Part shown: piece by piece, positions 29,793-38,054 of the stretch
Layout: each line of letters begins with the position of its first letter
Numbering within the stretch: position 1 is the first letter of the stretch
Assembly (NCBI RefSeq): GCF_013267195.1
Contig: NZ_CP053941.1
Coordinates: 124,001-188,000, forward strand
Reading direction: 5' to 3'
Source: Halorubrum salinarum
GTDB lineage: Archaea > Halobacteriota > Halobacteria > Halobacteriales > Haloferacaceae
DNA length: 64,000 bases
Made by a program: the position numbers and the translations under genes
The notes under the pieces: model-generated
What the model saw: the letters and a program-made list of their open reading frames with translations, nothing else
Database searches by the model: none
What the model was told of the DNA's origin: nothing

Positions 29793-30791
29793 TTACACGC
29801 GGTCGACGACCGCCGCGGTGACCTCGTCGGTCGTCGCCGACCCGCCGAGGTCGCCGGTGCGGGGCCCGTCGGAGAGGACGCCCTCCACCGCGTCGCGCAC
29901 CCGCTGGCCCTCCTCAACGTGCCCGAGGTACTCCAGGAGCATGGCCGCCGAGAGGATGGCCGCCGTGGGGTTCGCGATCCCCTTGCCGGCGATGTCGGGC
30001 GCGGTCCCGTGGACCGGCTCGAACAGCGCGTTGTCGTGGCCGACGTTCGCCGAGGGGAGCAGGCCGAGCCCTCCGACGAGGCCCGCGGCCAGGTCGGAGA
30101 GCACGTCGCCCGCGAGGTTCGGGCAGACGATCACGCCGTACTGGCTCGGGTCTAGCGGGAGCTTCGTCGCGAACGCGTCCATCAGCTCCTCGTCCGCGTC
30201 GACGCCGCGCTCGGCGGCCACGTCGAGCACCTCCTCGCGGAACCGGCCGTCCGTCTCGCGCATCACGTTCGCCTTGTGCGCGACCGTGAACCCCTCGTCG
30301 GGGTCGCCCGCGGGCCCGCGCCCGTCGTCGACGAACTCGCAGGCGTACTCGGCCAGCTCCCGGGACGCCGACGAGGTGACGACCCGCGTCAGCGTCGAGA
30401 GGTCCTCGGAGAGCCGGTCCTCGTGGCCCGAGTACACGCCCTCGGTGTTCTCGCGGAGGAACACCACGTCCGTCTCCGGGCGGAGCGCGTCGACGCCCGG
30501 GAACGCCTTCGCGGGCCGGACGTTGACGAACGAGTCGACCGCCTCGCGCAGCGGGAGGATGACGTCGGCGGCCGTCTCGCCGGCCGCGCCGAACAGCGTC
30601 GCGTCCGCGTCGGCGACGCGCTCGTACGTCTCGGCGGGGAGCGCCTCGCCGGTCGCCTCTTTCGTCGCGTCGCCCGCGTCGGCGGCGACGAACTCGAACT
30701 CGACGTCGAGCGACTCCAGCACCTCGACGGCGGCCGGCACGACCTCGCGGCCGATGCCGTCGCCCTCGATGACGACTATCTCGTCGGGCAT
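29793..30791 (-). CDS. leuB: 3-isopropylmalate dehydrogenase
   Basis: 332 residues of the isocitrate/isopropylmalate dehydrogenase family: [20 protein letters not shown] at 5-24, the [11 protein letters not shown] and [13 protein letters not shown] segments (about 85-120), and the metal-binding [19 protein letters not shown] near 221-239. It oxidises and decarboxylates 3-isopropylmalate in leucine synthesis. In this operon it may also serve the citramalate route to isoleucine. It is the last gene of the ilvB-ilvN-ilvC-leuC-leuD-leuB operon. Confidence 0.94.
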
Positions 30792-30795
30792 CCGG

Positions 30796-31413
30796 TCAGT
30801 CGTCCCCCTCGACGTACGGCAGGTCGGCGACCGTCTCGTCGACCTTGCTCCGGTTCGAGTACATCAGGGCGGTCGTGTCCCAGATCCCCTCGACCAGGGC
30901 CTCGCGCATCGCGTCGTCGACGTCGACGTCGATGACGGTGTCGCCGTAGGTGACGGTCTCGTTCTCGACGTCCACGTCGATGTCGCCGTCGGGGTTCGCC
31001 TCGATCCACTCCTGGAGTTCGACGACCGTCTCGTGGTCCGTCGTGACCGCCGGGATGCCCAGCGACTTGCAGTTGTCGCGGAAGATCTCGGCGTAGGACT
31101 CGCCGACGACGCCGTCGATCCCCCACCGCATCATCGCCTGCGGCGCGTGTTCCCGGGAGGAGCCGCAGCCGAAGTTGGAGTTGACGACCGCGATCGACGC
31201 CCCCTCGAAGCGGTTGAGCGGGTGGTCGTTGAACTCGCCGTCGTCGTCCCGCCGGGCGTCGTAGAAGAGGTAGTCCGCCATGTTGTCGAACGTGACCTCC
31301 TTCATGAACTTCGCCGGCAGGATCTGGTCGGTGTCGACGTCGTCGCCGGGGATCGGGACCCCCGTGCCGGACACCTCGGTGATGTGCTGGTCGTCCGCGT
31401 CGTTCGCGCTCAT
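30796..31413 (-). CDS. leuD: 3-isopropylmalate dehydratase small subunit
   Basis: 205 residues. [19 protein letters not shown] (about 19-37) and [21 protein letters not shown] (about 77-97, shown by its [10 protein letters not shown] core) are the swivelling-domain signatures of aconitase-family small subunits. With LeuC it isomerises isopropylmalate. It overlaps leuC by one base and is followed by leuB after 4 bases. Confidence 0.95.
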
Positions 31414-32873
31414 CAGTCGGCCACCTCCTCGACGCCGCCGGCGCCGCCCGTCGGCCCGTCGTCGAGGTACTCGCGCGCGTCGGCGACCTCGCCCTCGACG
31501 GCCGCGGCCGCGACCATCGCGGGGCTCATCAGGACGGTGCGGCCGTCCTTCGACCCCTGCCGCCCGATGAAGTTCCGGTTCGACGAGGAGGCGCACACCT
31601 CGTCGCCCTCCAGGGCGTCGTCGTTCATCGCGAGGCACATCGAACAGCCGGCGCGGCGCCACTGGAAGCCGGCCTCGATGAACGTCTGGTCGATGCCGCG
31701 CTCCTCGCACTGCTGGCGGACGGTCTCGGACCCGGGGACGGCCAGCGCGCGGACGTCCTCGTCGACCGTGTTCCCCTCTAAGATCTTCGCGGCCTCCTCG
31801 AAGTCGGAGAGGCGGCCGTTTGTACAGGTGCCGAGGAACGCCACGTCGACGTCGTAGCCGAGCATCGACTGGCCGGCCTCGATCTCCATGTGGTCGAGCG
31901 CCTGCTCGGCCGCCTCGCGGTCGGTCCGGGCCTCGAAGTCGTCCGGGTGCGGGACCGGCTCCGAGATCTCGATCACCTGTCCGGGGTTGATCCCCCAGGT
32001 GACGAGCGGGTCGAGCCCGTCGGCGTCGACCGTGACCACGTCGTCGTACTCGGCGTCGTCGTCGGAGCTGATCGACTCCCAGTACGCCTTGCGCTCCTCG
32101 AACGCCTCGCCCTCGGGGACGTACTCGCGGCCCTTCAGGTACTCGTAGGTGGTCTCGTCCGGGTTGATGTAGCCGGCGCGGGCGCCGCCCTCGATGGACA
32201 TGTTACACACCGCGAGCCGGCCCTCCATGTCGAGCGCCTCGATGGCGGGGCCGCCGTACTCGTACACGTGCCCGACGCCGCCGTCGACGCCGAGGTCCTG
32301 GATCACCTTCAGGATCACGTCCTTCGCGTAGACGCCCTCGCCGAGTTCGCCCTCGACGTTGACCCGGCGGACCTTCTGTTTGTCCGCGGCGATACAGCCG
32401 GTCGCGAGCACGTCGCGGATCTGGCTCGTCCCGATGCCGACGCCGATGGAGCCGAACGCGCCGTGGGTCGCGGTGTGGCTGTCGCCGCAGGCGACGGTCA
32501 TCCCGGGCTGGGAGAGCCCGAGCTCCGGGGCGACGACGTGGGTGATCCCCTGCTTGCCGGACTCGAAGCCGAAGAACGTGATCCCGCTGTCGCTCACGTT
32601 GCGTTCGAGCGCGGAGAGCATCTCCTCGGCCTGGTCGTCGGCGAGGGGACGCTCGCGCTTGTCGGCCTCGGTGGGCGCGATGTGGTCCGTCGTCGCGAAC
32701 GTCCGGTCGGGGTACGCCACGTCGAGCTCGCGCTCGCGCAGCATGCCGAACGCCTGCGGGCTCGTCACCTCGTGGACGAGGTGGAGCCCGATGAACAGCT
32801 GGTCCTGCCCGTTCGGGAGCTCGGTGACCTTGTGTCGGTCCCACACCTTGTCGTACAGCGTCCCCTCGCTCAT
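31413..32873 (-). CDS. leuC: 3-isopropylmalate dehydratase large subunit
   Basis: 486 residues. ACGDSHTATHGAFGSIG near 126-142 and the Fe-S cysteines in LGTCTNGRLSDF (about 349) and GCSMCLAMN (about 410-418) are complete, so the [4Fe-4S] catalytic cluster can form. It works with LeuD on isopropylmalate and perhaps citramalate. Its start overlaps the ilvC stop by one base. Confidence 0.95.
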   Translation of the reverse strand: MSEGTLYDKVWDRHKVTELPNGQDQLFIGLHLVHEVTSPQAFGMLRERELDVAYPDRTFATTDHIAPTEADKRERPLADDQAEEMLSALERNVSDSGITFFGFESGKQGITHVVAPELGLSQPGMTVACGDSHTATHGAFGSIGVGIGTSQIRDVLATGCIAADKQKVRRVNVEGELGEGVYAKDVILKVIQDLGVDGGVGHVYEYGGPAIEALDMEGRLAVCNMSIEGGARAGYINPDETTYEYLKGREYVPEGEAFEERKAYWESISSDDDAEYDDVVTVDADGLDPLVTWGINPGQVIEISEPVPHPDDFEARTDREAAEQALDHMEIEAGQSMLGYDVDVAFLGTCTNGRLSDFEEAAKILEGNTVDEDVRALAVPGSETVRQQCEERGIDQTFIEAGFQWRRAGCSMCLAMNDDALEGDEVCASSSNRNFIGRQGSKDGRTVLMSPAMVAAAAVEGEVADAREYLDDGPTGGAGGVEEVAD

Positions 32874-33931
32874 CAGGCGGTCACCTCTGCCGACTCCTCC
32901 TCGTCCTCGTCGGCCGACTCCTCCCACGCGAACAGGCCGCGCAGCTCGTCGCCGACGGCCTCGATGTCGTGGTTCTTCTCCGCGTTCCGGAGCTGCGTGT
33001 AGGAGGGCCGTCCGGCCTGGTTCTCGGCGATCCACTCGCGGGCGAACTGCCCGTTCTGGACCTTCTCTAAGACCTCCTCCATGTTCTCGCGGGCGTGCTC
33101 GTCGACGACCACGTCGCCCTGCGTGAGCCCGCCGTACTCCGCCGTGTCGGAGACGGAGTCCCACATCTCGCCGAGCCCGCCCTCGTACATCAGGTCGACG
33201 ATGAGCTTCAGCTCGTTGAGGCACTCGAAGTACGCCATCTCGGGGGAGTAGCCCGCGTCGACGAGCGTCTCGTACCCCTGCTTGACGAGCGACGTGACGC
33301 CGCCACAGAGGACGGCCTGCTCGCCGAACAGGTCGGTCTCGGTCTCCTCGCGGAACGTCGTCTCGACGACGCCGGCGCGCGTACAGCCGATGGCGGCCGC
33401 GTACGCGAGCCCCTCGTCGCGGGCGTCGCCGGTCGCGTCCTGATACACCGCGAGCAGGCCGGGCGTCCCCTGGTCGTTCTCGTAGTTCCGACGGACGAGG
33501 TGGCCCGGCGACTTGGGCGCGACCATCGTCACGTCGACGTCCTCCGGCGGCTGGATCTGGTTGTAGTGGATGTTGAACCCGTGCGCGAACTGCAGCGTGT
33601 CGCCCGCGTCGAGGTTCGGTTCGATCGCGTTCTCGTACACGTCCGGCTGGACGGTGTCGGGGACGAGGACGCTCACCACGTCGGCCTCGGCGGCCGCGTC
33701 CGCGGGCGTCTCGACGCGGAGCCCGTCGCTCTCGGCGGCGGCCCGCGAGGAGCTGTCCTCGCGGAGGCCGACGATCACGTCGACCCCGCTGTCCGCGAGG
33801 TTCTGCGCGTGGGCGTGGCCCTGCGAGCCGTAGCCGAGGACGGCCACCGTCTTGTGCGCGATGGCCTCCTCGTCCGCGTCGTCGTCGTAGTATACTGTCG
33901 AGTCGAACGTCTGGGTGTCGTCTTCGGTCAT
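32873..33931 (-). CDS. ilvC: Ketol-acid reductoisomerase
   Basis: 352 residues, class I length. The Rossmann motif [17 protein letters not shown] lies near 29-45, and [13 protein letters not shown] (about 230-242) provides the metal-binding acidic residues. It converts acetolactate and acetohydroxybutyrate to dihydroxy acids with NADPH and magnesium. An acidic tail ([16 protein letters not shown]) is a halophilic feature. The gap to ilvN is 33 bases. Confidence 0.96.
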
Positions 33932-33964: not shown

Positions 33965-34648
33965 TCAGTCGTCGTGCGTCGTCGGTTCGCCGGCCGTTCC
34001 GGGTTTCTCTCCTGGCGCCGTGGGGGTGTCGCCGCGCGCGAGGGCGGTCGGGCCCGTCCGCGCGATCTCGACGATGCCGAACCGGTCGAAGGCGCTTATC
34101 GCGCTGTCGATGCTCGCCTTGTCGCCGGTGAGCTCGACCGTGATCGTGTCCGGGCCGGCGTCGACCGTCCGGCCGTCGTACATCTCGGAGACGGCGTGGA
34201 CCGCGGCGGGGTCGTCCGCCTCGACCTTCAGCAGGACGAGCTCCGAGGTGACCGCGTCGCCCGCGACCTCGCCGACCGAGATGACCGGCTTCAGCTTCGC
34301 CATCTGCTTTTCGATCTGGTCGATGCCAGGGTCCGTCTCCTCGACGACCATCGTGATCCGCGAGTGGCCGTCGACGGTCGTCGGCCCGACCGTCAGGCTC
34401 TCGATGTTGAACTGGCGGCGGGAGACGAGCCCGGAGACGCGCGCGAGCACGCCGGGCTCGTCCTCCACGAGCGCCGAGATGACGGCGCGCCGCGACTCGT
34501 GTTCAGCCTCGACGACCGGGTCGATCCGGATCCCTTCCAGATTCCGGCGCCCCTCGGGATGGTCACGCTCGTCCGGCCCGGGCTGTTCGTCCGGGAGGGG
34601 CCGCGAGTCGGCCTCCGGCGCGCCGGCGGACGGCGAGTCGCCGCTCAT
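33965..34648 (-). CDS. ilvN: Acetolactate synthase regulatory (small) subunit
   Basis: 227 residues, longer than the usual 160-180 because of roughly 45 extra residues before the ACT domain and an acidic/polar tail. The ACT domain runs from about 52 (RRAVISALVEDEPGVLARVSGLVSRR, key EPGVLARVSG) to 125, followed by the C-terminal ACT_5-like part with ELVLLKVEADD. It binds valine-type effectors and controls IlvB. It overlaps ilvB by four bases. Confidence 0.93.
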   Translation of the reverse strand: MSGDSPSAGAPEADSRPLPDEQPGPDERDHPEGRRNLEGIRIDPVVEAEHESRRAVISALVEDEPGVLARVSGLVSRRQFNIESLTVGPTTVDGHSRITMVVEETDPGIDQIEKQMAKLKPVISVGEVAGDAVTSELVLLKVEADDPAAVHAVSEMYDGRTVDAGPDTITVELTGDKASIDSAISAFDRFGIVEIARTGPTALARGDTPTAPGEKPGTAGEPTTHDD

Positions 34649-36444
34649 AGCTGGTCCTCCGCGGCCGCGAACTTCCCGTTCGCGCCGCCGCTCGGCACCA
34701 TCGGCAGGACGTTCTCCTCGGGGTCGACGTGGAAGTCGATCACGGCCGGCCCCTCGTAGTCGAGCGCCTCCTCGACCGCGGGCGCGACCTCGTCGTAGTC
34801 GTCGACGCGCAGCCCGAGGGCGCCGAACGCCTCCGCGAGCTTGTCGAACTCGGGCATCCAGGTGTAGTCGGACGCCATGTGGCGCCCCTCGTAGAAGGCG
34901 TCCTGCCACTGGCGCACCATGCCGATGTACTCGTTGTTCAGCACGGCGATGGTGACGTCTAACTCCTCGCGGACCGCGACCGACAGCTCCTGCATCGTCA
35001 TCAGGAAGGAGCCGTCGCCGTCGAAACACACCACGTCGCGGTCCTCCTCGCCCATCGTGTCGGCGGCGACGCGCGCGCCGACCGCGGCGGGCACGCCGTA
35101 CCCCATCGTGCCGAGGCCGTGCGAGGAGACCCACGTGCGGGGCTCCGTGTACGTCCAGAACTGCGAGGCCCACATCTGGTGTTGCCCGACGCCGGTCGTC
35201 ACGATGGTGTCGTCGTCGGTCGCCTCGTCGAACGCCTCGACGACGAACTGCGGCTTCAGCGGCTCGTCGTCCGGCGTCGCGTACGTGAGCGGGTACGTCT
35301 CCTTCCACTCCTCGCAGCGGTCGCGCCACGCGGCGGCGTCGGGCGCCTCGCGGACCGCCGCCGTCAGCTGGTCCAGCACGCGCCCGGCGTCGCCGATCAG
35401 CGGGTAGTCGGCGTGGACGTTCTTGCTGATCTCCGCGGGGTCGATGTCGACGTGGATGACCTCGGCCTCGGGCGCGAACGTGTCGATGCCGCCCGTGAGG
35501 CGGTCGTCGAACCGCGTGCCGACCGCGATCAGGCAGTCGGTGTGGGTGATCGCGAGGTTCGCGTAGCCGGTGCCGTGCATCCCCGCCCACGAGAGGCAGA
35601 GGTCGTCGTCCTCGGGGAACGAGCCGATGCCGGGCATCGTCGTGGTCACGGGGATGCCGTAGCTCCGGGCGAAGGTCCGCGCCTCGTCGCTCGCGTCGGC
35701 CTTGATGACGCCCCCGCCGAACAGGCAGACGGGGCGCTCGGCGGCCTCGATGGCGCGCGCGGCCTCCTCGACCGCGTCGGCGTCGGCGTTCGGGTCGGGG
35801 TCGGTGCCGGCCGGCGGCGTCGCCGGCCCGGGCGTCCGGTCCGTCTCGTCCTGCGTCACGTCCTTCGGGAGGTCGACGAGGGTCGGCCCCGGGCGTCCGG
35901 CCCGCGACAGCTCGAACGCCTCGCCGACGGTGTCGCCGACGGTGTCCGCGCCGCCCGCGAAGTAGTTGTGCTTCGTGATGGGGCGGGTGACCCCGACCGT
36001 GTCCGTCTCCTGGAACGCGTCGTTCCCGACGAACTCCGTCGGGACCTGGCCGGTCAGCGCGACCATCGCGTCGGAGTCCATGTCGGCGTCGGCGATGCCG
36101 GTGACGAGGTTCGTCGCGCCCGGGCCGGACGTGGCCATACAGAGGCCCGGCTCGCCGGCGACGACGCCGTACGCGTCGGCGGCGTGGGCCGCGCCCTGCT
36201 CGTGGGCCATCGTCACGTGCCGGATCGACGAGTCGTACAGGGCGTCGTAGACGGGCATGATCGCGCCGCCCTGGACGCCGAAGGCGGTCTTCGCGCCCGC
36301 GGCCTCGAGGGCGGCGACGACCGACTCGGCGCCGGTCGAGACGGCACCCGCGGCCGGTCCGTCGTCCGGGTCGGTCGGTTCCTCGGTCGCGCCGTCGTCC
36401 GACTCGTCGGCGTCGGATCGCGGCTGTGCTGCTGTGTCGCTCAT
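34645..36444 (-). CDS. ilvB: Acetolactate synthase catalytic (large) subunit
   Basis: 599 residues of the thiamine-diphosphate enzyme family. The catalytic Glu sits in MAHEQGAAHAADAYG (near 75), and the metal/diphosphate site is GDGSFLMTMQELSVAV with NNEYIG (about 467-495). It makes acetolactate or acetohydroxybutyrate, the first step of valine/leucine and isoleucine synthesis. An acidic 45-residue N-terminus precedes the PYR domain. The long leader upstream (to about 36695) carries a leader peptide and hairpin. Confidence 0.96.
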   Translation of the reverse strand: MSDTAAQPRSDADESDDGATEEPTDPDDGPAAGAVSTGAESVVAALEAAGAKTAFGVQGGAIMPVYDALYDSSIRHVTMAHEQGAAHAADAYGVVAGEPGLCMATSGPGATNLVTGIADADMDSDAMVALTGQVPTEFVGNDAFQETDTVGVTRPITKHNYFAGGADTVGDTVGEAFELSRAGRPGPTLVDLPKDVTQDETDRTPGPATPPAGTDPDPNADADAVEEAARAIEAAERPVCLFGGGVIKADASDEARTFARSYGIPVTTTMPGIGSFPEDDDLCLSWAGMHGTGYANLAITHTDCLIAVGTRFDDRLTGGIDTFAPEAEVIHVDIDPAEISKNVHADYPLIGDAGRVLDQLTAAVREAPDAAAWRDRCEEWKETYPLTYATPDDEPLKPQFVVEAFDEATDDDTIVTTGVGQHQMWASQFWTYTEPRTWVSSHGLGTMGYGVPAAVGARVAADTMGEEDRDVVCFDGDGSFLMTMQELSVAVREELDVTIAVLNNEYIGMVRQWQDAFYEGRHMASDYTWMPEFDKLAEAFGALGLRVDDYDEVAPAVEEALDYEGPAVIDFHVDPEENVLPMVPSGGANGKFAAAEDQL

Positions 36445-36470
36445 TGTCGTGGTGGTGTGCGGTGTGGCAT
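36441..36470 (-). CDS. Nine-codon mini-ORF overlapping the ilvB start
   Basis: The frame MPHRTPPRQ ends in a TGA whose preceding A and T make an ATGA overlap with the ilvB ATG. It lies in the ilvB leader. Whether it is translated is unknown; it could couple ribosome arrival to ilvB initiation. Its Pro and His codons are not branched-chain codons. Confidence 0.25.
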   Translation of the reverse strand: MPHRTPPRQ

Positions 36471-36611
36471 CTGGCGGGTTGTCGTGTCGGTCGCTGCGAA
36501 CGCGGGGCGGCCGGGGGCGGCCTCGACCCGTCGAACGCGGCACTCCGGGGCTCGAGAACGGTCCGGCCACCGGCGTTCGGCGGTGCGTCGCGTCGGTGAG
36601 GAAGGGGTAGT

Positions 36612-36631
36612 GTAGGGGGTCAGACCCCTAC
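36612..36631 (-). other. Hairpin after the ilvB leader peptide Ile codons
   Basis: On the transcript the arms GTAGGGG (36631-36625) and CCCCTAC (36618-36612) pair perfectly over 7 bases around a 6-base loop. The left arm is exactly the leader codons GTA and GGG and the first base of GTC, and the leader stop codon lies in the loop. A ribosome waiting at the two ATC codons just before would cover the left arm and keep the hairpin open. No T-run follows, so a simple intrinsic terminator is not supported. Confidence 0.65.
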
Positions 36632-36694
36632 GATGATCGGCGCGACGGCTCCCGGGACGCTCGCGTGCGCCGCGGCCGTGGAACGCCGTCGCAT
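36620..36694 (-). CDS. Leader peptide of the ilvB operon (candidate attenuator)
   Basis: A 24-codon ORF whose last residues are Ala-Pro-Ile-Ile-Val-Gly-Val, i.e. codons ATC ATC GTA GGG GTC before TGA. In all it has two Ile and four Val codons. A TATA-like box lies 26-31 bases upstream of the ATG, which suits a leaderless start. It precedes the acetolactate synthase operon, whose end products are valine, leucine and isoleucine, and its 3' codons form one arm of a hairpin. Translation is inferred, not shown. Confidence 0.55.
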   Translation of the reverse strand: MRRRSTAAAHASVPGAVAPIIVGV

Positions 36695-36832
36695 CTCGCC
36701 CGAGACAACGCGGCCGGGGTATAAATTCCTGTCGGGGGACGCGGCGCCGGGCGGCGCACGGCCCCTCGGTCGGGTGCTCCCGCGACCGCCCTCGCGGTCG
36801 CTCGGGGGGCGCTCCGGTCGGGGCGGGGTCCA

Positions 36833-38054
36833 TCAGACCCGGACCTCCTCCTCGCGCGTGACGCCCGCCTCCTCGGCGAACCGCTCGACGTCGCCGGCGG
36901 TCACCTGCCGCTTGCCGGCGCCGTACTCCTTGACCCGCTTGGTTATCTTCCGGACCTCGCTGTCCGTGGGGTCGAAGCCGGCCTCCACCAGGTGCTTGCG
37001 CACGCTGTGCGTGCCGGTGTGTTTGCCCAGCACGAACTCGCGCTCCGCGCCCACCATCTCCGGGGTCATCACGCCGGTCTCGAACGTGTCGGCGTTCTCG
37101 ATGACGCCCGCGGCGTGGATGCCGGACTCGTGGGCGAACGCGTTCCGCCCGGTGATCGGCTTGTTCGCCGGCACCGGGATGTCCGAGGCCTCCTCGACGA
37201 TCCGAGCCAGCTTGGTGATCTGGGTCGTGTCGATGCCCGTGTCGACGCCGTACACCGACTCGACGGCCATGACGACCTCCTCGTAGGCGGCGTTGCCGGC
37301 GCGCTCGCCGATCCCGTTGACCGACACCTGCGCCTGCTCCGCGCCGTTCTCGAAGCCCGTGACTGCGTTCGCGGCGGCCATGCCGAAGTCGTCGTGCGTG
37401 TGGACGTCGACGCGCGCGTCGGTCGCCTCCACGACGGCGTTGACCGTCTCGCCGAAGCTGGTCGGCATCCCCACGCCGCAGGTGTCGGGGATGTTGATCC
37501 AGTCGGTGCCGGCGTCGGAGACGGCCTCGACGATGTCGATCAGGTACTCCGGGTCCGTCCGGGTGGCGTCCATCGGCGAGAACATACACTCGACGCCGGC
37601 GTCTTTCACCTGCTCGACGGCGTCGACCGCTCGCCCCTTCGCCTCCTCGCGGGTCGCGTGCATCGAGTCCTCCAGCTGAACGTCGCTGGTGGAGACGAAC
37701 ACGTGGACCATCTCGACGCCGGAGTCGATGGCGGCCTCGATGTCGCCCTCGACGACCCGCGCCAGCCCGCAGACGGTGGTGTCCGTCGCGGCGGCGATGT
37801 CGCTGACGGCCTCGAACTCCGCGTCCGAGTTGACCGGGAACCCCGCCTCGATGACGTGGGTGTTCATGTCGTCCAGCGTCGCCGCTATGCGGCGTTTCTC
37901 ATCGTAGCTGAACGACGTACGTGGTGACTGTTCTCCGTCTCGCAGGGTCGTGTCGAAGATCCGTACCGGACCTATGTCGACGTTAGAAGCTATCGTGCCC
38001 TGGAAGAACTCGATCCGCCGGGGTGTCCGACGAAGCCTCCGTGATGTCTGTCAT
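36833..38054 (-). CDS. leuA: 2-isopropylmalate (or citramalate) synthase with a 5' frameshift
   Basis: About 407 codons in two frames. The main frame (36833-37867 from ATG, MNTHVIEAGFPVNSD onward) lacks the catalytic N-terminus. Conserved coding continues upstream to about 38010, as EFFQGT and RIFDTTLRDGEQSP, the first strand of the DRE-TIM barrel, but has no start codon in that frame. A good start, ATG 38054 (MTDITEASSDTPAD), with gttaagtac 22 bases upstream, lies in the frame one base off and stops at 37983. Loss of one CGAGT from a tandem pair at 38008-38012 would explain the shift exactly. No C-terminal allosteric domain is present. Confidence 0.75.

Follow-up and report, generated by a model that had tools for sequence, protein, structure and literature searches.

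The stretch of DNA analysed here (the window, 64,000 nucleotides of Halorubrum salinarum contig NZ_CP053941.1) carries on its minus strand an operon for branched-chain amino acid biosynthesis, with the order ilvB-ilvN-ilvC-leuC-leuD-leuB(-like), preceded by a leader element that sits between a leuA-like gene, ending at 36833, and ilvB, starting at 36444. The leuA-like gene is a separate gene located upstream of the leader and not behind it. The features of the locus are the following:

36833..37867, minus strand: leuA/citramalate-synthase-like gene (NCBIfam 2-isopropylmalate/citramalate synthase models, all under their curated cut-offs)
36720..36725, minus strand: TATA box TTTATA, promoter of the leader, its first T 31 nt ahead of the ATG (from the sequence)
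36694-36692, minus strand: start codon ATG of the leader ORF (from the sequence)
36620..36694, minus strand: leader ORF of 24 codons, MRRRSTAAAHASVPGAVAPIIVGV followed by a stop (sequence, Halorubrum and genus-level comparison, frame test)
36632..36637, minus strand: two Ile codons, ATC ATC, directly 5' of the hairpin, which together with GTA form the proposed stall site
36625..36631, minus strand: left arm of the hairpin, GTAGGGG, spanning the GTA (Val) and GGG (Gly) codons plus base 1 of the final codon
36619..36624, minus strand: hairpin loop TCTGAC, 6 nt, with the in-frame stop TGA at 36622-36620
36612..36618, minus strand: right arm of the hairpin, CCCCTAC (CCCC core constant, outer TAC variable)
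36595..36611, minus strand: C/A/T tract lacking G and containing the pyrimidine box CCCCTTCCTC, a proposed termination or 3'-processing signal
36441..36470, minus strand: second short ORF, encoding MPHRTPPRQ, its stop and the start codon of ilvB overlapping in ATGA; of uncertain significance
34645..36444, minus strand: ilvB, acetolactate synthase large subunit (TIGR00118 above cut-off)
33965..34648, minus strand: ilvN, acetolactate synthase small subunit, start codon unsettled (TIGR00119 above cut-off)
32873..33931, minus strand: ilvC, ketol-acid reductoisomerase (TIGR00465 above cut-off)
31413..32870, minus strand: leuC (TIGR00170 above cut-off)
30796..31416, minus strand: leuD (TIGR00171 above cut-off)
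29793..30791, minus strand: leuB-like dehydrogenase (best NCBIfam models isopropylmalate/isohomocitrate dehydrogenases, under cut-off)

The leader peptide ends in Ala-Pro-Ile-Ile-Val-Gly-Val, followed immediately by the stop codon. A first-pass annotation of the window had described a TATA-like box, an ATG, a 24-codon ORF ending in Ile-Ile-Val-Gly-Val, a hairpin whose loop holds the stop codon and, downstream, an operon for the synthesis of valine, leucine and isoleucine; all of these held at the positions listed above.

When only the window sequence is considered, the ORF could be due to chance and the hairpin (-12.6 kcal/mol, z -1.99) is unexceptional, with 12 of 200 shuffled sequences folding equally well. 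It is the comparison with other genomes that decides, and conservation raises the hairpin far above chance. No Rfam family, including the bacterial ilvB motifs, gave a covariance-model match up to E = 1, and the second ATCGTAGGGG of the same genome (G000:C1:2077438) is devoid of such a hairpin or ORF.

The intergenic region was taken from 50 Halorubrum genomes. In all of them the distance from TTTATA to the ATG is exactly 31 nt, although the bases lying between both elements vary. The leader ORF is open in 50/50 genomes, with 23 or 24 codons, and the encoded peptide ends in IVGV in 49 and in IVGA in the other one, its stop codon swapping among TGA, TAA and TAG. The sequence GTAGGGG, followed after 5-6 nt by CCCC, is also present in 50/50 genomes.

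When the analysis was widened, covering 27 further genera of the same family as well as most of the remaining families in the order, 123 of 129 loci contained the element, the left arm GTAGGGG being identical in all 123. A covariance model built from 62 element loci identified it in 372 of the 392 genomes of the order (338/345 if only high-quality genomes are counted), belonging to 87 of 95 genera; outside the order, the only matches of this model were weak ones, in 7 genomes (E from 7e-5 to 1e-3), and were attributed to chance. Named carriers are Natronolimnohabitans, Halovivax, Haladaptatus, Halorubrum salsamenti, Halolamina rubra and Natrialba asiatica, and one MAG also has the element. The gene context is also maintained, with a LeuA homologue upstream in 64/64 genus-level loci. 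The features that remain constant across genera are the spacing between promoter and ATG (mostly 29-35 nt from the TATA box in other genera), the reading frame and the end of the ORF; the ORF can be as short as 16 codons or as long as 62, and no sequence is conserved in its first part. The existence of the ORF, its frame, promoter spacing and gene context are thereby shown by sequence comparison.

Six loci lack GTAGGGG. Two of these, L066 and L117, have a TATA-spaced ORF that ends in a different hairpin: GAGCCG-cctga-CGGCTC in L066, with the stop in the loop and Val-Leu codons in front, and GGGCC-gcgat-GGCCC in L117, preceded by Ile-Arg-Val codons and followed by CTTCTC. These two hairpins fold no better than shuffled sequences and should be regarded as hints only. 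In the remaining four loci (f2, f9, f11) no leader was found.

The coding character of the leader is supported by a frame test, in which the TATA-spaced ATG proved to be open as far as the motif in the GTA-GGG frame in 61/64 genus-level loci, and in 0/64 and 0/64 for the other two frames. Thus, the ORF behaves as a coding sequence under frame constraint, its translation being inferred. With the TATA box occupying -31 to -26, transcription should begin on the ATG or right beside it, and the ORF is probably leaderless; a leaderless transcript is likely, and is inferred from archaeal promoter geometry.

The identity of the codons is likewise shown by comparison. The codon preceding GTA is Ile in 62 of the 64 loci, Leu in one (L092) and Val in another (L109), and GTA itself is invariant (64/64), the regulatory codons matching the product of the operon (Ile, Leu or Val, plus Val, ahead of ilvBNC-leuCDB) in every case. 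GTA represents only 1% of the Val codons in 20 ilvB genes, and ATT, which accounts for 44 of the 62 Ile codons before GTA, only 10% of the Ile codons in ilvB genes. Since both triplets are rare in those genes yet prevalent here, the presumed stall site would be made of rare codons. Moreover, GTA is retained even where its pairing partner has been lost, suggesting, by inference, a reason for its maintenance besides pairing, for example a particular tRNA. Against an attenuator, it has to be mentioned that leucine codons are almost absent from the leader although leuCDB lies downstream.

Regarding the hairpin, most loci fold locally better than their shuffled versions (64 loci, mean z -2.75), and the loop between GTAGGGG and CCCC measures 5-9 nt across relatives. 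The stop codon is in the loop or at its edge in nearly all loci, the exceptions being L120 (f13) and L151 (Natronolimnohabitans), where it is found after the hairpin and the peptides end in IVGALPR and IVGAPTPRL, respectively. The core of the hairpin is shown by its conservation; the GGGG/CCCC pairs never vary among distinct sequences, and hence they give no information about covariation, and the three outer pairs (GTA/TAC) hold in about half of the distinct sequences. Counting over distinct sequences, double changes were seen at one base pair only, the one that closes the loop (formed by the nucleotides immediately 3' of GGGG and 5' of CCCC), which is C-G in 44 cases, T-A in 10 and T-G in 3, with the mismatches C-T in 4 and C-A, T-T and G-G in one each. 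This association is strong (Fisher p 7e-8), without correction for kinship. On the LeuA tree, the first base of this pair changes at least 11 times; just four comparisons fall on supported branches, the partner following in about three with none against, which are too few to prove covariation.

Beyond the hairpin, the conservation of a tract poor in G is also shown by comparison. Positions 5-19 after CCCC contain 2.2% G against a background of 23% (64 loci), and a T-rich, CTTYTC-like box is located 15-19 nt after the start of CCCC (T 46% vs 11%; 64 genus-level loci). Conservation ends at this box, just past the hairpin. In H. volcanii, terminators contain a T stretch with TC, hairpins were located 10 nt or less upstream of 503 mapped sites, and one hairpin caused 59% termination in vivo (PMC7237163). 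As in these terminators, the hairpin of the leader is placed shortly ahead of a T-rich, C-containing box, and a hairpin alone can cause partial termination in that organism; the leader differs in that its hairpin is inside an ORF, inferred to be translated, and in that its T-run is short. Most runs have 2-4 T, and strong termination is not assured. Thus, the tract fits a weak terminator, a reading inferred from sequence that remains unproven, there being no 3' end data.

The leader is separated from ilvB by 82 to 359 nt (median 148 nt). The second short ORF, whose stop overlaps the ilvB ATG (ATGA), has similar counterparts in most other genera and is missing in some Halorubrum; it is Arg/Thr-rich, often with RYR, and GGAGG frequently appears before ilvB in other genera. 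It could possibly reflect translational coupling, or be a by-product of ilvB starting with Met-Ser in GC-rich DNA. Another idea, that the C/T-rich box might sequester the start of ilvB, was dropped because the spacing varies and Halorubrum lacks GGAGG.

The first-pass annotation had interpreted the locus as an attenuator that senses the ribosome, a proposal that would fail if the ORF or the hairpin were absent or frame-broken in relatives. This was checked and is not the case, and the reading is supported by the maintenance of the ORF, its frame, the branched-chain codon and the hairpin core across the order, expression and response to starvation not having been shown. The compensatory changes that it expected in the hairpin were only partly found, at a single base pair. 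Its remark that no T-run follows the hairpin held for this species; the G-free stretch with its T-rich box emerges across the 64 genus-level loci. Finally, it had left translation control or factor-dependent termination as possible outputs, and between termination and translation the matter, inferred from sequence, is still undecided.

Other genes provide natural controls. In many genomes of some families, the covariance model detects a second site, which precedes valS in nine of the genomes inspected (L275, L276, L278-L282, L284 and L273; at about 1500). The valS copy keeps GTA-GGG-GCN-NNN-TAG-CCCC and has Phe, Arg or Val, not Ile, before GTA, its ORF ending in FVGAP, FVGAS, VRVGAS, VVVGAS or VVVGAA. 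The valS copy has thus retained only the Val codon, and the copy ahead of the Ile/Val operon both. In the case of pheS, a TATA-spaced ORF with runs of Phe codons near its end was found in 7/10 genomes (L320, L322, L323, L325, L326, L328 and L329), with ends such as GFGFFFGA, SGFFFGTA and GFGFFFAR before the stop; the sequence CGGYGGACYCC is often located 3' of this ORF, and the folding tests of pheS leader hairpins were not significant. For H. volcanii, a 2016 study described an ORF of 26 aa within a mapped 5'-UTR of pheS (PMC4983044). Both controls, valS and pheS, agree with codon sensing. Trp-rich leader ORFs were found neither at trpS (13 genomes) nor at trpC (12 genomes), indicating that such ORFs are not found wherever one looks. 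There is no obvious leader at ileS and leuS in the genomes examined, and the genome of the window has no such leader at valS or pheS. Upstream of one valS (L298, G181), another leader candidate was observed, MRVVAVVRE, which contains Val codons and lacks GTAGGGG.

In the absence of expression data, we consider it likely that this element is a class-wide haloarchaeal leader-peptide attenuator, mediated by the ribosome, triggered by uncharged Ile- or Val-tRNA and probably acting through premature transcription termination. In the proposed mechanism, the transcript would have the ATG of the short ORF at or beside its 5' end and, being leaderless, would receive its first ribosome behind the RNA polymerase. 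With Ile- or Val-tRNA uncharged, this ribosome would stall at the Ile-(Ile)-Val(GTA) codons and cover GTAGGGG with its leading edge, blocking the hairpin, and the polymerase would continue into ilvBNC-leuCDB. When charged tRNA is plentiful, the ribosome would reach the stop codon in the loop and depart, allowing the formation of the hairpin, which, together with the G-free C/T-rich tract, would cause premature termination, either intrinsic or aided by archaeal aCPSF1/FttA. Leaderless transcription, translation of the ORF, stalling, masking of the arm, and termination as the output instead of translation or RNA decay are all inferred. The geometry favours direct masking of the left arm by a ribosome halted at Ile or GTA, since this arm begins at the codon right after Ile, i.e., where a stalled ribosome would alter the structure. 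No conserved sequence or pairing partner was found upstream of the hairpin across genera, nor any conserved second hairpin competing with it, and an antiterminator would be unnecessary if the ribosome masks the hairpin directly. Coupling between transcription and translation has been proposed for H. volcanii (PMC8576121). A point against the proposal is that ilvB is absent from the list of H. volcanii uORFs with 5'-UTRs of 150-250 nt (PMC4983044).

The logic of this system is known from bacteria. The ilv/leu attenuators of E. coli (ilvGMEDA, leu) and Corynebacterium (ilvBNC, with the single-family motif ilvB-II; PMC10272879) also consist of a short ORF with Ile/Val/Leu codons before acetolactate synthase genes, followed by a hairpin, and Corynebacterium ilvB-II is located about 150 nt before ilvB (PMC10272879), similar to the haloarchaeal median of 148 nt. 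However, the haloarchaeal leader is archaeal and its ORF, as the promoter spacing indicates, would be leaderless; a single hairpin is conserved in it, overlapping the final codons and with the stop in its loop, and no antiterminator was found; its T-rich box lies about 12 nt beyond the hairpin in a G-free tract, whereas the bacterial U-run is right at the hairpin; and there is no sequence relation between them, as judged by the absence of an Rfam match. In E. coli, pheST is controlled by attenuation through the leader peptide PheM. The haloarchaeal pheS ORFs with Phe codons resemble a functional counterpart of PheM, without sequence relation. The uORFs described in H. volcanii are likewise ORFs of 15-31 aa ahead of genes in mapped transcripts, but they were reported as small proteins and no role in attenuation was proposed for them (PMC4983044). 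What is new here is the lack of sequence relation, the archaeal transcription machinery, the probably leaderless leader ORF and the stop codon in the loop.

The main rival explanation maintains the same ribosome-sensing leader, and the two readings differ in output, not in sensor. In this alternative, the output would be translation or RNA decay without premature termination, with the leader ORF and the hairpin setting reinitiation at the second short ORF and ilvB (ATGA overlap), or a cleavage site. In its favour, most genera have a second short ORF running into the start of ilvB, in many cases with a GGAGG-like sequence ahead of it, the T-run of the leader is weak, and archaeal 3' ends can come from aCPSF1 cleavage (PMC7515710). 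Against it, the distance between leader and ilvB varies, conservation stops at the T-rich box, as in a terminator or processing site and unlike an element acting on the ilvB start, and Halorubrum has no GGAGG at the second short ORF or ilvB. This explanation is judged unlikely, and transcription attenuation is preferred.

Three other alternatives are much weaker. It could be argued that the leader encodes an arrest peptide, whose nascent C-terminus, (I)-V-G-[AV], senses the free amino acid, as TnaC senses tryptophan; the C-terminal residues are conserved and the remainder of the peptide is not. However, V-G-[AV] follows from the RNA itself (GTAGGGG plus the loop-closing pair), and neither GTA nor GGG ever changes at its third position, despite each being rarer than its synonyms. 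Furthermore, the residue before V-G is free in the valS copy (F, R or V), where the peptide still stops at VGA plus one codon, and the pheS leaders have quite different C-termini around Phe, making this possibility very improbable. There is also little to sustain the idea of a DNA operator, in which a transcription factor (e.g., of the Lrp/AsnC family) would bind the palindrome and the ORF would be incidental. It is true that GTAGGGG-N-CCCCTAC is a near-perfect DNA palindrome downstream of a promoter, conserved at the nucleotide level and present at two loci of related function. Nevertheless, the spacing between half-sites is not fixed (5-9 nt, about half a helical turn of variation); the frame of the site never changes, and it always closes an open ORF with TATA spacing, the stop falling within or beside the spacer; the codon just outside the palindrome is always a branched-chain one ahead of ilvB; and the leaders of L066 and L117 carry other palindromes in the same position. 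Lastly, a functional microprotein whose gene merely overlaps a terminator of leuA read-through, which the frame constraint on the ORF might suggest, is rendered extremely improbable by the 16 to 62 codon range and unconserved N-terminal part across genera, and by the presence of its own TATA box at constant spacing.

Beyond the ilvB leader, a bolder reading of the attenuation proposal can be advanced, towards which we lean, if only modestly: that haloarchaea possess an old, family-rich attenuation system based on leaderless leader ORFs (Ile/Val for ilvB throughout the order, Val for valS, Phe for pheS), with a loop stop codon and direct masking by the ribosome. In 2021 it was stated that there was no known archaeal example of transcription attenuation or antitermination (PMC8448881), and none was found in the open-access literature searched to 2026, although a prior mention in H. 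volcanii small-protein or ribosome-profiling papers is not excluded. If true, the bolder reading would give archaea their first demonstrated case of transcription attenuation, one that depends on coupling between transcription and translation, the archaeal ribosome and RNA polymerase being linked closely enough to regulate operons. It would also explain how haloarchaea sense branched-chain amino acids, through a control that arose apart from the bacterial versions. Because the element occurs in almost all haloarchaea and nature offers variants of it for three amino acids, the question can be tested directly in Haloferax volcanii.

Two further occurrences of the element can be recorded. In one genome, a second copy of ilvB (L283, G347:C1:2984183) has its own leader element. 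At another locus (L274, minus strand, at about 1506; G199:C2:397903), which precedes neither ilvB nor valS, a complete leader element, MRQLDTDSHTAPASGGAVGARLIVGV followed by a stop, is located ahead of a small unknown ORF, MTENRRTTNDNRDDDQQTMADVDHTPPHEAPGANRVFERGNEGRR.
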